From contig WRGF01000209.1 in NCBI GenBank assembly GCA_009787345.1, positions 1-38,465 on the forward strand: a stretch of 38,465 bases of DNA. Reading direction: 5' to 3'. The DNA is from Turicibacter sp. (GTDB taxonomy: Bacteria > Bacillota_I > Bacilli_A > MOL361 > Turicibacteraceae). The notes under the pieces are model-generated. The model was given only the letters and a program-made list of their open reading frames with translations, was not told where the DNA came from and did no database searches. The position numbers and the translations under genes are program-made. Positions 31,947 through 38,465 of the stretch are shown piece after piece. Position 1 is the first letter of the stretch, and every line of letters starts with the position of its first letter.

Positions 31947-32618
31947 TTACTTGCGGTAGGTGCGTTCTTCGTGCATATTCAACGTTGCCCGGGTGATGAA
32001 CCTTAGGCGGTTTCCGTCATAGGCGGCGTAGTAGACATCCCCGACGAACAGGATGCCTTCGGCTTCCATTTGGGCATTCAACCAGTCTGTGTCCCTGTCG
32101 ATTTTGGTGAGGTTTTCTTGGACCAGGACACCGGATACGATAATGGGCAGAGGGTTGTAGGGGCAGGAGTCTTTCTTGAATGCGGTGAGCTGGCCGTTAG
32201 CTTCAAGGATGGCATATTCCACTTCAAAGACGGAGGTGATGTCTTTCATGCGCAGCTGGACCATGAGGTCGTCGAAATTATAGCGCTGCTTTTTCATTTC
32301 CTCGATGTTGACCACCCCGTTATGGATTAAAATCGCCGGCTTGCCGTCGATGACGTCGCGGAGCTTTTTTGAACGGAGGGTGATGAACGCGGTGAGAAGC
32401 TGGAGCGAGCCTAACAGGGTGATGGCCAGGAATATTTCTTGCATGGACCGGTTGAAGTCGATGGCCATGGCGGCGATTTCAGCCATGAGGATGGAAACCA
32501 CCAAGTCGATGACGGTCAGTTCGCCGACCTCTTTTTTGCCCATGAGCTTGAAAACTACCAGAAGCAGGACGTACAGGATAAAGGTACGGTAGATTGTAAG
32601 ATAGTAATTGAAACTCAT
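31947..32618 (-). CDS. DUF421 (YetF-like) membrane protein
   Basis: A 223-residue protein with three N-terminal membrane helices, containing LMGKKEVGELTVIDLVVSILMAEIAAMAI (about 25-55), the family signature. A cytosolic DUF421 domain follows, with GKPAILIHNGVV near 92-103. Family members sit in the membrane of many Firmicutes and some are linked to spore or stress physiology; the biochemical role is unknown. The ATG at 32618 follows AGGTGAGGTGG. It is a single gene whose downstream side is the candidate large RNA. Confidence 0.9.
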   Translation of the reverse strand: MSFNYYLTIYRTFILYVLLLVVFKLMGKKEVGELTVIDLVVSILMAEIAAMAIDFNRSMQEIFLAITLLGSLQLLTAFITLRSKKLRDVIDGKPAILIHNGVVNIEEMKKQRYNFDDLMVQLRMKDITSVFEVEYAILEANGQLTAFKKDSCPYNPLPIIVSGVLVQENLTKIDRDTDWLNAQMEAEGILFVGDVYYAAYDGNRLRFITRATLNMHEERTYRK

Positions 32619-32813
32619 AAAGCCACCTCACCTGTTTTACAATTTATGCTAAAACCTTCCCCCATTCAATGAACGTTTCCAAAAAAGCCGATTCTTTTTA
32701 GCATCGAGCCGAAGAAAAAACGGGCTTCCCCAGCCAAATCCTTGCGCTTCAACATATCCAATTGGCGGGGCACATAAAATTTATAGACCAAATGAATATT
32801 AGGAGCTGAGATT

Positions 32814-33182
32814 ATGACCGAAAAATTAGGAAAAGCAATTTTATCAGGGTTTTCATTCGTCGGGATTAGTGTTCCCATCGCTTCCCTTATTATTACAACC
32901 ATCGCCTATTTTGACTTAATCCCGCAAGCGGTTTTAAGCGGGCTGTTATTTGGGTCTTTCATCGTGATTTTCTTTATGGCTTCCCTTCGCACCGCCCAAA
33001 AAATCGGGCAAAAAGGATGGGCAGTCGGAGCCGCCATCGCCGCTGCCATGACCGTGCTCAGTCTGATGTACACCCTTATCGGCATCGAACAAACCCCTGG
33101 GCTGCAATTTTTGGTCCGCACCGCCATTTCCACCGTCACCTGCATCACCGGCGGGATGATTGGAGTCAACCTTTCCAAATAA
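32814..33182 (+). CDS. small four-helix membrane protein, TIGR04086/YrzE-like
   Basis: A 122-residue polytopic protein with four hydrophobic helices (about 12-33, 38-58, 68-90, 97-118) and a short GMIGVNLSK end. Size, helix spacing and the GxxxG-rich last helix resemble the TIGR04086 family of Firmicutes membrane proteins; this is a family-level match from memory. The function is unknown. The ATG at 32814 has AGGAG upstream. It is a single gene, convergent with the bacteriocin-like cluster, sharing a terminator. Confidence 0.7.
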   Translation: MTEKLGKAILSGFSFVGISVPIASLIITTIAYFDLIPQAVLSGLLFGSFIVIFFMASLRTAQKIGQKGWAVGAAIAAAMTVLSLMYTLIGIEQTPGLQFLVRTAISTVTCITGGMIGVNLSK

Positions 33183-33186
33183 AAAG

Positions 33187-33232
33187 ATAAAAGACGAATG
33201 AGGTCTTGGCCACTTCATTCGTCTTTTATGCT
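33187..33232. terminator. shared terminator at the end of the membrane-protein gene and the ABC permease gene
   Basis: Perfect 15-bp arms 33187-33201 and 33215-33229 (ATAAAAGACGAATGA and complement). The stop codon of the minus-strand permease gene (33215-33217) lies in the right arm, so its last codons double as terminator stem. Confidence 0.85.
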
Positions 33233-34573
33233 GAAAAAAAAACATATCATCGTCATCCCTAAGTTGGAAGCTATCCCTATCAAAAAGGAAACCACTAAGG
33301 AATTGAGGAAAATTTGACCCACCACAAATGCTAAGACCAAAGGCAACAACTGAAGTGTCCGGAAAATATTCACCAAATAAATAAAAGACAAATCATCTGG
33401 GAGAAGCTTAGGAAAAAGAGAATGAGCTGAATAAATGGGGATAAAATTCGCAAGTACCAGACTTAACATCACCAAGGGAAGCAATAGCAAATATCCCCAA
33501 ACCTGGATTGGGAATACCCAAAAACATAGGACAACAACCAGTCCATGCACCAGATTCATTTTAACAAAGGGGATAAAGTAAGCATCAATAAATTTCCATG
33601 GTTTAGAAATGGGGGCCAACTGCAAGCAAAGAGATTGCAGGTCTTTAATGATATTAAAATCCGCCAGGGATCCTACAAAAAAATTAGCAGTTGCCACGAT
33701 AAGCAACAACACCCACGGAAAATCAATACCGTTGTCATCATACGCCGTGACGCCCACCCACAAAAAAACAACCAGCACAGCCATCGTCGAATTAAAGATG
33801 AGCGAAAAATCCAAGAATTTAATCCTTCCCCTTCGAAGAAGAATTAAATTCTTGGAGGCGACAGGCAGTTTTTTCCAACGCCATAGAGAAACGGCACCGC
33901 TTCCTCCTCTGGGATTTATTCCCCTATCATGGGAATAATTTCGAAATCCTTTTCTTTTTCTAAATCCAAGAGTTATATTGAAAAATATCAGTGAGCCAAA
34001 ATATACCCACATGAATATCACTGGATCCCACCGCAGGCGAATAAAAAAAGAAAGAATCATCACGAAAGTACAAATTAAATAGAGGATCTTGCCCCTATTC
34101 CCCCCTCCCTGATATTTTATCAAAAAATGCAAGCTTGTCAAAAAGTAGATACCTACTATCCATACAGCATGTTGGCTAAACCTCTCTGTCCGCTGAGGGA
34201 TTAGATAAAAAATCCATACCAAGAGGGCTAGCTTAAATAAAAGTCCCACCATATTGGGCAGGAGGGAATTCATCCTCATCCAGAGACGCAAGGTTTCATC
34301 CGTAATGGGGCAACGCCTCAAAAAAAAGAATAAGCTATCCCCCTCTTGTGAGGTTGCGTTACCCAATAATGGCAAAGTTGTCAAAAACACGATGCCTATC
34401 ATAAAATAAACAAGCACTTCAGGGGAAAACGTAAAAACTGTATCCCTGACCGTTGGATTTGAAATGAGTAAAGGAAGTAAAAAGAGCATTCCGACCATCA
34501 GGCTCAAAAGCCCTAAGGGGGAAAAATATTTCCGTTTAAATTTCTGGTAATTTAGGAATAAAATAGCTTTCAT
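33215..34573 (-). CDS. polytopic ABC-type permease of the bacteriocin-like cluster
   Basis: A 452-residue membrane protein with about 11-12 hydrophobic helices. The first is preceded by a basic N-terminus (NYQKFKRKYFSP), a layout seen in large ABC-2-like exporters of lantibiotic and bacteriocin immunity systems. I do not recognise a precise family. A cytosolic basic loop lies near residues 205-250 (FRKRKGFRNYSHDRG, LWRWKKLPVASKN). Its ATG overlaps the stop of the ATPase gene before it by 4 bases (ATGA), so the two form one transporter module. It is the last gene of the cluster. Confidence 0.75.
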   Translation of the reverse strand: MKAILFLNYQKFKRKYFSPLGLLSLMVGMLFLLPLLISNPTVRDTVFTFSPEVLVYFMIGIVFLTTLPLLGNATSQEGDSLFFFLRRCPITDETLRLWMRMNSLLPNMVGLLFKLALLVWIFYLIPQRTERFSQHAVWIVGIYFLTSLHFLIKYQGGGNRGKILYLICTFVMILSFFIRLRWDPVIFMWVYFGSLIFFNITLGFRKRKGFRNYSHDRGINPRGGSGAVSLWRWKKLPVASKNLILLRRGRIKFLDFSLIFNSTMAVLVVFLWVGVTAYDDNGIDFPWVLLLIVATANFFVGSLADFNIIKDLQSLCLQLAPISKPWKFIDAYFIPFVKMNLVHGLVVVLCFWVFPIQVWGYLLLLPLVMLSLVLANFIPIYSAHSLFPKLLPDDLSFIYLVNIFRTLQLLPLVLAFVVGQIFLNSLVVSFLIGIASNLGMTMICFFFSIKDE

Positions 34574-35283
34574 AAGGTATCCTTCCCAAAAAATGACTTC
34601 ACCAATTGTTGGGTAGAAGCAAGCGTTTGATAGCCCTCTCCGTCAAAAACAGAAGCGATTTTCCCGTCTTTGATAATAGCAATTTTATCGTACAATCCGA
34701 TGACCGTTTCAATTTGATGAGTGGAGATCAGGACCGTCTTACCTTCTTCCCGAAAACGTGTGATGGTGGACTTTAAAGTTTCCACCGCGGCGATATCAAG
34801 GCCCACAAACGGTTCATCAAATAAAATAATGTCTGGACAGGTTAAGAGTGCCACACAAATGTTTAATTTTTGCTTCATTCCTTTGGAGAGGTTTTTTCCA
34901 AAGGTTTTTTTTTCTTTCAATAAGTCAAATTCAGACATCAAACGTTTTTTATAGGCTTGGTACCCCGACAAAGAAAATAATTTAGCAATAAACTCCAAAT
35001 GTTCATCTACCGTAAGAAAATCGAATACTTCGGGTATTTCAGGTACATAGCCTAACCGCCTTTTAGAAGCTAATGCCGTATTTTTTTCATCTCCGAACTC
35101 AATTTGTCCCTCATACGGCTCCAACGTGGCGATTGCCTTAAAGAGCGTGGATTTTCCAGCGCCGTTTTCCCCTAAGAAAACCATGGTTTCGCCGGATTTT
35201 ATCTGAATATTGACATGTTTCAAGACCTGCTTTTGTTTGTATTTTTTCGATACTTCATGTACCAAAACCGAATGATTTGACAC
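34570..35283 (-). CDS. ABC-transporter ATP-binding protein, second module
   Basis: A 237-residue ATPase. Walker A is GENGAGKST, the signature LSKGMKQK, Walker B IILFDEPFVGLD with catalytic Glu, and the switch His is in STHQIE. It is of the ABC-2/CcmA-like class that partners separate permeases. The GTG start at 35283 has GGAG nine bases upstream. It follows the first permease gene by 19 bp and overlaps the 452-residue permease by 4 bases. In AS-48-type clusters such modules provide export and self-protection. Confidence 0.9.
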   Translation of the reverse strand: MSNHSVLVHEVSKKYKQKQVLKHVNIQIKSGETMVFLGENGAGKSTLFKAIATLEPYEGQIEFGDEKNTALASKRRLGYVPEIPEVFDFLTVDEHLEFIAKLFSLSGYQAYKKRLMSEFDLLKEKKTFGKNLSKGMKQKLNICVALLTCPDIILFDEPFVGLDIAAVETLKSTITRFREEGKTVLISTHQIETVIGLYDKIAIIKDGKIASVFDGEGYQTLASTQQLVKSFFGKDTL

Positions 35284-35302
35284 TTCTACCAGCTCCTCGT
35301 CT

Positions 35303-36166
35303 TTAATCCGTTAAATCTTGATTCTTAAATACTAACAATGCTGTCGACAAAAAAACGGCGAGTGAGACGACCAGGCTTAAGCCTCCGATGATATGGACAA
35401 ACGTCATGCCCGTTCCTTGGCGAAATATAACTAAGGCATAATTCGTAGGGAAAAGGTAGGTTACCACGTCTCCTGCTGGGAAACCTGCCGAAGCACTTCT
35501 GGCAAAATTAGCGAGCAAGGCCTCCATCAAACTCGCCCCGAAATGAATCAATACCAATAGCATATCTGATTTAACGAATAGGCTAATTAAAACCAAAAAG
35601 GAAGCCAACATTGCCTGATATACCGTCATTCGAATAATTAAAAGGAAAATCTGCATGATGGGGATAAGCAGGGAAGAATACCCCCAACCGTACCGAAGGG
35701 TGGCAATGACAGTGATGACAGTTGCGAAAAACAGATGAAAGAGAAACAAAAAGAAGGTAATCACAATTATTTTAGAAAGAAAAATGACCACCCGGCTATC
35801 ATGTGCCAATACGATATTATAAATGGTCTTTTTAGTAAATTCTGAAGAAAATAAAATCACCACTAGTAATGGGGTCAAAAACATCATCAGCCCGTCTGCC
35901 GAGGAACTGGAAAAAGATTGATGTCCAAATCGTAAATTTTCTTGTTCTGCCATAAAAGCTTCCATTTCCTGTGCGAATGCCTCATCCAATCCCATATCTT
36001 GCCATTCCACTGAAGCATGACTCCCCTGAATCCCAAAATTTTCTAATAACATTTCCCCGATAGGCACGACATGAAAAAATCCGAGGGCAAAGAAAACAAG
36101 AAAGGCAACACCGAGGGATTTGTTCTTAGATAACCGGTAGATTTCCGCCAATAGCACCCCCTTCAT
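35303..36166 (-). CDS. ABC-2 type permease, first module
   Basis: A 287-residue membrane protein. The first helix is at about 16-35, followed by a roughly 65-residue extracellular loop rich in Glu and Met. Five further helices form the ABC-2 core between about 95 and 285. It partners the ATPase encoded just before it, whose stop it overlaps by 4 bases (ATGA). It is probably part of bacteriocin export or immunity. Confidence 0.82.
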   Translation of the reverse strand: MKGVLLAEIYRLSKNKSLGVAFLVFFALGFFHVVPIGEMLLENFGIQGSHASVEWQDMGLDEAFAQEMEAFMAEQENLRFGHQSFSSSSADGLMMFLTPLLVVILFSSEFTKKTIYNIVLAHDSRVVIFLSKIIVITFFLFLFHLFFATVITVIATLRYGWGYSSLLIPIMQIFLLIIRMTVYQAMLASFLVLISLFVKSDMLLVLIHFGASLMEALLANFARSASAGFPAGDVVTYLFPTNYALVIFRQGTGMTFVHIIGGLSLVVSLAVFLSTALLVFKNQDLTD

Positions 36167-36885
36167 GAAGGCACCTCCACGGGGATATAGTCAACGGTAT
36201 CCAAAAATTCCTGATAAATATCCCGCTGAATTTGTCTGCCTCCTTCATCCAAAATATGCCCCTCCTTTTTATAGAAACACCGAAGAAGTTCCCCTTGATG
36301 AAGAATACCATAATGGGTCGCTACATCTTCTGTTTCCTTAATGAGATGGCTAGACAAAATAATGGTCATCCCTGCCTTGGATAAGGCTCCGATGAGGCGC
36401 TTCATTTCTGCAATAGCAACAGGGTCAAGCCCATTAAAAGGTTCATCCAAGATTAACAACTGACTATTTTTAAGTAGGGCGCAAGCAATCAACAGGCGCT
36501 TTTTCATGCCGATGGAATACGTTTTAATGGGCTTTTTGTTGGTGATATCCAACCCCACCCATGCTATTTTCCCCTCAATGCCAGTGGTTGAGTTATTTCC
36601 CATGACTAGGGAATAATACTTAAGGTTCTCGTAAGCTGACAAATTGTCTATCAAATTTGTCCCTTCGAATACCGCAGCAATTTCACTTTTGGGAAATCTG
36701 CACTTCACTTCCCCTCGGTCGCTTGCGATTAATCCAGTGGCAATTTTCAAAAGTGTTGTTTTTCCTGCCCCGTTGATTCCCATTAAAAAGAAAATAGATC
36801 CCGAAGGGATTTCCAAGTTCACATGCTTTAAAACCTGATTTTGTTGAAAACTTTTCGTGATTCCTCTAAATTTGAGTGCCATCAT
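36163..36885 (-). CDS. ABC-transporter ATP-binding protein, first module
   Basis: A 240-residue ATPase with Walker A GINGAGKTT, signature YSIGMKKR, Walker B LLILDEPFNGLD and switch His in LSSHLIKE. It resembles the BcrA/CcmA-like ATPases of peptide-antibiotic immunity transporters. The start at ATG 36885 has AGGAG eight bases upstream; a second ATG follows directly. It lies 11 bases after the preceding membrane-protein gene and overlaps the next permease. Confidence 0.9.
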   Translation of the reverse strand: MMALKFRGITKSFQQNQVLKHVNLEIPSGSIFFLMGINGAGKTTLLKIATGLIASDRGEVKCRFPKSEIAAVFEGTNLIDNLSAYENLKYYSLVMGNNSTTGIEGKIAWVGLDITNKKPIKTYSIGMKKRLLIACALLKNSQLLILDEPFNGLDPVAIAEMKRLIGALSKAGMTIILSSHLIKETEDVATHYGILHQGELLRCFYKKEGHILDEGGRQIQRDIYQEFLDTVDYIPVEVPS

Positions 36886-36896
36886 AAGTTGTTCTC

Positions 36897-37421
36897 CTAG
36901 GGTAGCATTAAAAATACTAAGCCAATAGTGGTTACCAAAGTCATGGCTATTCTTTGAAATTGGGTGTATGTACCGATTTTAGCTAAAAATTTGATGGAAA
37001 GAAGGTAAAAAAGGACATAAAAGGGTAAGTATCCTCCCATCCCTAAAAATCCTTGTGCGGACCATGGGGTTCCGATGATTAAGAAAGCTGCTGTATCACA
37101 AATGGCAATAATAAAAGCACTGCTGAAAATACAAACTGACAATTTGACGAATTCTTTAATGTGAAGCAATTGGCCAACGATCGCTGACAAAAAATAATAA
37201 ATAACGGAGATGCAAACAATCCAAAAAGCCAGTACGATGAAAATAGATATAAAGTTTCCGATGAAGGATAGTGCCACACTCCAGCCATTTCCTCCAAAAA
37301 AACCATAAATCTCTCCCAAGTTTAGAAGCATATTCAAACAGCCAAACAAACCGAATCCTAACGCACTCAATAAATACGTCTTTTTAACATTTTTTTCCAA
37401 CGTTAAATAAATTTTATCCAT
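36897..37421 (-). CDS. five-helix membrane protein, Yip1-like, bacteriocin-cluster associated
   Basis: A 174-residue protein with about five hydrophobic helices and short charged N- and C-termini. Helix spacing resembles the bacterial Yip1-domain proteins that often accompany SpoIIM/DUF95 genes in circular-bacteriocin clusters; this is a weak family match. The ATG at 37421 lies seven bases after GGGAGG and was preferred over an in-frame TTG adjoining the ribosome site. It follows the SpoIIM gene by 19 bases. It is a candidate component of the maturation, export or immunity machinery. Confidence 0.65.
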   Translation of the reverse strand: MDKIYLTLEKNVKKTYLLSALGFGLFGCLNMLLNLGEIYGFFGGNGWSVALSFIGNFISIFIVLAFWIVCISVIYYFLSAIVGQLLHIKEFVKLSVCIFSSAFIIAICDTAAFLIIGTPWSAQGFLGMGGYLPFYVLFYLLSIKFLAKIGTYTQFQRIAMTLVTTIGLVFLMLP

Positions 37422-37440
37422 GTTCAAGCCTCCCAGAAAA

Positions 37441-37875
37441 TCAAATGAAACTATTAAATATACGAGGTGTTAGAAAGGCTTCAAATCCAGCCATGATTAC
37501 CAAGAATACCAGATGGCATAAAAAGTCCTTCATGTATTTTACCGCGTGAGTGCGTATGTATGCCTCTCCTTTATCCACATAAATGGCCGTGGATAAAAAT
37601 AAAGGGATTTCAAAAAGGCCGTGGGGGATAATTAGCATTAAAAGCAACGGATTCAAAGAAAGAGACCACCCCATAAAAATTCCCAAGACAAGTCCGTTAT
37701 AAGCATAGGTAAATAGCGCATAATATTTCGTAAATACAAACGAGAAGTAGATAAGAAATAGGAGTCTTGTATTAATGCGGATAATATCAAAAAAATAATA
37801 ACTTTGGACAACAAATGGTACGAGGGGGTTATCTTCTTCTGGAGGGAAAATAAAAAACCCTAGAAAGATACCCAA
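37441..37875 (-). CDS. SpoIIM/DUF95 family membrane protein of the bacteriocin-like cluster
   Basis: A minimum of 144 residues. The signature AYNGLVLGIFMGW and LLLMLIIPHGLFEIPLFL is typical of SpoIIM/DUF95 proteins, which in non-sporing bacteria are found beside circular bacteriocins (for example in the AS-48 cluster) and are required for production or immunity. The only standard start, TTG at 37875, lies inside the first membrane helix and lacks a ribosome site. The frame stays open upstream and encodes a sensible N-terminus, NYFQNKGFKQSVKLF, then a Leu-rich helix. An ATT codon at 37938, 10 bases after GGAGGGG, could be the true start, giving 165 residues. It is the first gene after the precursor hairpin. 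Confidence 0.8.
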   Translation of the reverse strand: MGIFLGFFIFPPEEDNPLVPFVVQSYYFFDIIRINTRLLFLIYFSFVFTKYYALFTYAYNGLVLGIFMGWSLSLNPLLLMLIIPHGLFEIPLFLSTAIYVDKGEAYIRTHAVKYMKDFLCHLVFLVIMAGFEAFLTPRIFNSFI

Positions 37876-37974
37876 CAGGAGTAATAAACAAAAAAGCTTA
37901 ACTGATTGCTTGAATCCTTTATTTTGAAAATAGTTAATATTCCCGACTCCCCTCCAATGATTTGATGAATTCGT

Positions 37975-38014
37975 GCAATAAGCCCTGTCTTTAAGAGTAG
38001 ACAGGGCTTATTGC
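37975..38014 (-). terminator. strong hairpin between the precursor peptide gene and the SpoIIM gene
   Basis: Perfect 16-bp arms 37975-37990 and 37999-38014 (GCAATAAGCCCTGTCT and complement), 20 bp past the peptide stop. It lacks a long T run, so partial read-through is likely. This would give much more precursor than processing proteins, as in other bacteriocin operons. Confidence 0.8.
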
Positions 38015-38034
38015 CGCTTAACATGCGCTTTCTG

Positions 38035-38301
38035 CTACGCCGCAGCGTGGTAAAGCCCTAAAATACCAGATTTAAGAGCTCCCGGAATCACGACGAATCC
38101 CCAACCCGTTAAGGCACTAGAAATAAGTCCAATCCAAGTAAGGGCAACAAGTGTCCAAGCAAACCAAGTGGGAATTGTCCTACCTGTGAAGAGTTGGACA
38201 AGTCGGATAACATTAAATTGTAGTGCTGTTGCCAATAAGAGCGAACAGGAAATGGTAAGTCGCAACCCTAAGGTTCTGGGTTTAACAGTAGCTTGAAGCA
38301 T
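38035..38301 (-). CDS. putative AS-48-like circular bacteriocin precursor
   Basis: An 88-residue, very hydrophobic peptide with no Asp or Glu, four Trp and seven Lys/Arg/His. Residues about 11-29 form a hydrophobic leader ending SLLLATALQFN. The following region (VIRLVQLFTGRTIPTW...) recalls the AS-48 precursor, where SLQFLPIAH precedes the mature MAKEFGIPAA. Three helices are predicted (12-28, 44-62, 64-86), with Gly/Ser/Ala spacing like saposin-fold circular bacteriocins; the Lys-rich end of AS-48 is missing and the C-terminus is YHAAA. The ATG at 38301 has GGAGAG upstream, so a longer in-frame start is not used. Downstream SpoIIM and ABC genes support the call. The cleavage site is uncertain. 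Confidence 0.6.
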   Translation of the reverse strand: MLQATVKPRTLGLRLTISCSLLLATALQFNVIRLVQLFTGRTIPTWFAWTLVALTWIGLISSALTGWGFVVIPGALKSGILGLYHAAA

Positions 38302-38302
38302 A

Positions 38303-38465
38303 TTATCTCTCCTTTGTTTTTTTACCTTTCTTTTTATCCTGAACAAAATTCAACACGCCGAAATACAACGTCAGACCGTAAAATACAATCCAAACAGGAT
38401 GTTCCAAATCGTTCCGATAAAAGAAGATGACTATTGTTGCAAAAATAATAATACAGCAGATACCA
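38303..38465 (-). CDS. small basic membrane protein, 5' end outside the window
   Basis: The C-terminal 53 residues of a protein whose start lies beyond the window edge. It has two hydrophobic segments (IIIFATIVIFF, then VWIVFYGLTLYFGVLNFV) and a very basic tail, QDKKKGKKTKER. Its stop is one base before the precursor ATG, and its end contains that gene's ribosome site, so both share an mRNA. Small hydrophobic cationic proteins of this type are the immunity proteins of circular bacteriocins; that role is inferred from form and place only. No start, promoter or full length can be given. Confidence 0.55.
   Translation of the reverse strand, partial: GICCIIIFATIVIFFYRNDLEHPVWIVFYGLTLYFGVLNFVQDKKKGKKTKER

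Follow-up and report, generated by a model that had tools for sequence, protein, structure and literature searches.

The window analysed here is the whole of contig WRGF01000209.1 (38,465 bases), and it carries a cluster at 38464-33215 whose genes all lie on the (-) strand and are read inward from the contig end at position 38465. The cluster includes, in order, a cut small basic membrane protein, an 88-aa peptide regarded here as a putative precursor, a hairpin, a SpoIIM/DUF95 protein, a five-helix membrane protein and two ATPase-permease modules. What remains of the first protein (38303..38464) is its C-terminal 53 aa, with two hydrophobic stretches and the tail DKKKGKKTKER; the 5' end is cut off at 38465, where the contig stops, and no contig overlapping this end was found in the genome. 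The precursor gene (38035..38301, coding to 38038) starts at ATG 38301 with AAAGGAGAG immediately upstream, a strong Shine-Dalgarno ribosome-binding site, and its product exhibits no D/E, four W and a GRAVY of 1.0. It is followed by a hairpin (37975..38014), detected as an inverted repeat and by RNA folding, whose arms (37975-37990 and 37999-38014) form a 16-bp stem of 100% complementarity around an 8-nt loop, with a fold z of -4.7 and 0/200 shuffles folding equally well. Since no U-tract lies behind it, the hairpin is not a classical terminator, and it likely represents an RNA processing/stability or attenuation element.

The SpoIIM/DUF95 protein (37441..37938) matches PF01944 at E 8e-9, above the cut-off, and most likely starts at ATT 37938 (37936-37938) behind GGAGGGGAG, giving 165 aa; starting instead at TTG 37875, the first start in the list, would cost the protein its N-terminus. 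If ATT 37938 is the true start, 96 bp separate it from the peptide stop. An ATT behind a strong ribosome-binding site is a rare start codon that would escape gene finders. The five-helix membrane protein (36897..37421) is 174 aa long, or 176 aa from TTG 37427, and lies 13-19 bp behind SpoIIM depending on this start. Its structure model shows five predicted helices at a mean pLDDT of 58.7, and no Pfam match was obtained for it. Its position resembles that of the polytopic GaaB/Yip1-type partners, and Yip1-type partner proteins have been reported in circular-bacteriocin clusters (PMC8659200); the topology is shared with no demonstrable homology, and an assignment as a GaaB homologue was not supported by sequence comparison.

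ATPase 1 (36163..36885) follows after 11 bp and overlaps permease 1 (35303..36166, 287 aa, ABC-2-like) by 4 bp; after a further 19 bp, ATPase 2 (34570..35283, 237 aa) overlaps the polytopic permease 2 (33215..34573, 452 aa), again by 4 bp. The two ATPases match PF00005 at E 4e-27 and 5e-27, permease 1 gives a sub-threshold match to PF12730 (E 4e-4, 20.9 bits against the 27-bit gathering cut-off), and permease 2 is an orphan that matched nothing in Pfam. ATPase 1 is closest to the LanF/BcrA lantibiotic self-protection ATPases of LanFEG/BcrAB systems, with a match to TIGR03740 (NCBIfam) at E 5e-55, below the curated cut-off, and up to 44% identity over about 200 aa to plasmid-borne self-protection ATPases (PcfF, BcrA). 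Unlike in those systems, the permeases of the cluster are orphan and no lantibiotic enzymes were seen in the cluster. Within the frame of permease 2, a long inverted repeat with a T-rich tail (33810-33856 (-), 20 pairs counted) was observed, terminator-like yet inside coding sequence. Elsewhere in the genome, a further ATPase (C190:7210-7845) is 44% identical to ATPase 1 and possibly belongs to another self-protection transporter.

These observations agree with much of the initial annotation of this DNA, which had described an acid-free, Trp-rich, hydrophobic 88-residue peptide, a strong hairpin behind it, and a SpoIIM/DUF95 gene, a polytopic membrane protein and two ATPase-permease modules on one strand. 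The composition, the perfect stem, the open reading frames and the PF01944 and PF00005 matches all bear this out, and the proposed 4-base overlaps or gaps of up to about 20 bp hold from SpoIIM onward. The basic two-helix protein that had been placed directly upstream of the peptide is likewise real, with its 5' end missing.

The cluster also differs from its surroundings, with a GC of about 39-39.5% against 47% in the rest of the window and a GC3 of 0.36-0.45 against 0.60-0.72 elsewhere. The neighbouring YetF gene is present in 7/7 other genomes of the family, and together with a TIGR04086/DUF3792 membrane gene (31947-33182) it forms a pair conserved in three sister genomes. In those three genomes the YetF-DUF3792 pair is followed by yajC, tgt, queA and ruvB (names from reading of the translations), where the low-GC cluster is found instead in the present genome, whose own tgt is on a different contig and lacks those neighbours there. 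Searches of the 7 other family genomes found neither the precursor nor permease 2; given this and the low GC, the cluster was probably acquired and would be accessory.

The precursor exhibited no match in Pfam, NCBIfam, PHROG or PDB. The profile search against circular-bacteriocin families that the initial annotation had proposed was empty: PF12173 gave no match at E <= 1, while the positive control gassericin A matched at 4e-50, and neither TIGR03651 nor the Pfam bacteriocin models matched, while circularin A as positive control matched TIGR03651 at 1e-22. The PF12173 profile, run over the phylum, found nothing above cut-off, nor any match in the source genome. In single-sequence scans, no relatives of the precursor were found in plasmids, viral contigs, 84,980 genomes and its own family and class, in collections that may leave out records of the window's own genome; matches at E 0.01-0.1 were attributed to chance, as they scored 14-18 bits and often contained internal stops. 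The Rfam search returned no match. The AlphaFold model of the precursor, a weak single-sequence model with a pLDDT of 70, shows a helical hairpin of two long helices, the first of 32 residues, with a disordered C-terminus below 50 and no visible four-helix bundle, and it found no match in a fold search of PDB.

The layout of the precursor nevertheless resembles that of subgroup ii circular bacteriocins, whose precursors are cleaved at Asn|Ile to leave a 58-aa core (PMC7452424, PMC8659200), those of gassericin A and plantacyclin being 33+58 aa. The precursor has a single Asn, at position 30, with exactly 58 residues after it, so that a long hydrophobic leader of 30 aa ending in Asn (38212..38301) and a 58-aa core, VIRLVQLF...LYHAAA (38038..38211), are predicted; the likeness is one of position only and the cleavage is a prediction from the subgroup ii layout. 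The predicted core has a pI of 11, three K/R, no D/E and a GRAVY of 1.14 (about 1.0 in subgroup ii), and its predicted cyclic mass is about 6207 Da (average). It shares with subgroup ii a very hydrophobic character and an A-rich C-terminus, and differs from most of that subgroup in being acid-free and basic, although plantacyclin B21AG, at pI 10, is basic too. The precursor further differs in lacking both a PF12173 match and the invariant NI...IA and GVTLPxW in register. The initial annotation had read the absent cationic patch and the AAA end as hints of a different ring closure and mode of action; for subgroup ii, whose cores end in ATAA, GTAA or AVSA, neither is an anomaly.

Placed in a fixed 58-residue register against five subgroup ii cores (four taken from sequence records, AR10 and the subgroup i cores entered by hand), the core scored above 99.4% of its own shuffles (P 0.006) and above 99.9% of hydrophobic membrane-protein segments from the window, in a layout recognised after the sequence was seen. 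The core has Pro43 and its A-rich end in common with subgroup ii, and its Pro14 and Trp16 match the paracasei type. Gapped circular alignments against subgroup ii cores were at chance, and hhalign of the precursor against subgroup ii precursors gave 0.8%, not significant. Taken together, the comparisons of the core with subgroup ii cores are suggestive of similarity, short of proof.

The SpoIIM protein matched the SpoIIM profile of subgroup ii (gassericin A-type, GaaD/PlcD) at E 7.4e-8 (94.5%, 114 residues), a plain SpoIIM from an unrelated locus giving a similar pairwise E-value (1e-4), and BLASTP against the AS-48 SpoIIM returned no meaningful match. Scans of the sequence collections with SpoIIM found no relatives, and the A2 SpoIIM profile recovered one further SpoIIM in the class (G310), which was rejected as a related cluster, its locus being an ordinary stand-alone gene. 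In common with the clusters of gassericin A, acidocin B, plantacyclin B21AG and butyrivibriocin AR10, the cluster runs from precursor to SpoIIM to ATPase-permease, with SpoIIM homology and a small basic two-TM protein. On the gassericin A and plantacyclin plasmids, the precursor gene is followed by those for SpoIIM, a basic membrane protein of 53-54 aa, an ATPase and an ABC-2 permease; the present cluster departs from this order in having two ABC modules, its small protein upstream of the precursor and a five-helix protein downstream of SpoIIM. This small protein has a layout like GaaI/GaaC with no sequence match to them, nor did it match known immunity proteins, and from its size, charge and place it is a candidate immunity protein. 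The gassericin A clusters fit better than AS-48, because Asn30 leaves a 58-aa core and the SpoIIM matches subgroup ii and not AS-48.

A putative circular-bacteriocin cluster has been defined for working purposes as a precursor, a DUF95 protein and an ATP-binding protein (PMC8534725, PMC8659200), and all three are present here, the precursor assigned by its character and position only. Drawing on the observed gene content, gene order, SpoIIM homology and layout, we consider it fairly likely that the locus is an acquired head-to-tail circular bacteriocin cluster of subgroup ii-like layout with a sequence-orphan precursor, and it would most likely represent an uncharacterised new group within the known class. 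Cleavage, cyclisation, killing and immunity are inferred. The precursor would be made in excess, the hairpin keeping its transcript apart from the downstream genes, which would be less abundant; cleavage after Asn30 would remove the hydrophobic 30-aa leader, and a bond between Val31 and Ala88 would close a hydrophobic, helical ring of 58 residues and about 6207 Da. SpoIIM, the five-helix protein and ATPase 1/permease 1 may act in maturation, export and self-protection, and immunity may come from the second ABC module together with the small basic membrane protein. The ring would enter the membranes of related Gram-positive bacteria and make them permeable. On this reading the cluster would yield a candidate for a stable antimicrobial in a lineage where these searches turned up none. 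If functional, a cluster with an unrelated precursor and a recognisable SpoIIM would help to separate the needs of the machinery from mere inheritance.

A linear membrane-active bacteriocin, leaderless or signal-bearing, that is exported by genes of a similar type and is not circularised is unlikely. The Trp-rich, basic and hydrophobic precursor would suit it, as would the lack of a ring-closing enzyme in the cluster; we know of no enzyme for circular-bacteriocin cyclisation. No maturation enzyme was identified in the cluster, which also counts against the circular reading, nor is one known in described circular-bacteriocin clusters (PMC8659200). Yip1 proteins are also mentioned in papers on leaderless bacteriocins (PMC11580447, PMC10707071). 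SpoIIM, however, is a hallmark of circular clusters, a leaderless bacteriocin would usually be shorter than 88 aa, and the sole Asn stands at the subgroup ii cleavage position. A role other than that of a bacteriocin, in which the peptide would be a small membrane protein with a structural or regulatory task in an ABC efflux/stress operon and have a SpoIIM-like partner, is likewise improbable. The modelled hairpin with its 32-residue first helix, the missing bacteriocin-family match and the occurrence of SpoIIM-family proteins on their own agree with such a protein; the strong ribosome-binding site and the hairpin that set the peptide gene apart, the acid-free Trp-rich composition, the self-protection-type ATPase, the gassericin-like layout and the deviating GC argue against it.

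The initial annotation had proposed a divergent member of the AS-48 family; a circular-bacteriocin-like cluster is still the best reading, and AS-48 is not the best fit. In favour of a divergent circular bacteriocin of the AS-48 type (subgroup i, saposin-fold) are the precursor, DUF95 and two ABC ATPases that both clusters combine, a core that shares its basic character with subgroup i, and the best single circular alignment, which is with lactocyclicin Q (14 tests, z 3.1, P 0.012). Such a bacteriocin is nevertheless very unlikely: the SpoIIM sequence and the bacteriocin models give no support, no large AS-48B-like protein lies between precursor and SpoIIM, the periplasmic-adaptor subunit is missing, the precursor sequence has no cationic C-terminal half or basic patch near the C-terminus, and the alignment of the core with AS-48 itself is at chance.

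Within the circular-bacteriocin reading, it is doubtful that the precursor founds a new group without sequence kin, or might even be a circular permutant of the subgroup ii family. If true, a new-group precursor could serve as evidence that cyclisation by the SpoIIM-based machinery depends on layout (hydrophobic helical ends, Asn at -1) and not on sequence. A half-turn rotation (29 of 58) was the best-scoring register of the core against the subgroup ii cores, with GxTxPxW in place; this register was singled out post hoc and serves as a lead only, its P being 0.024 against shuffles and 0.0005 against membrane segments.
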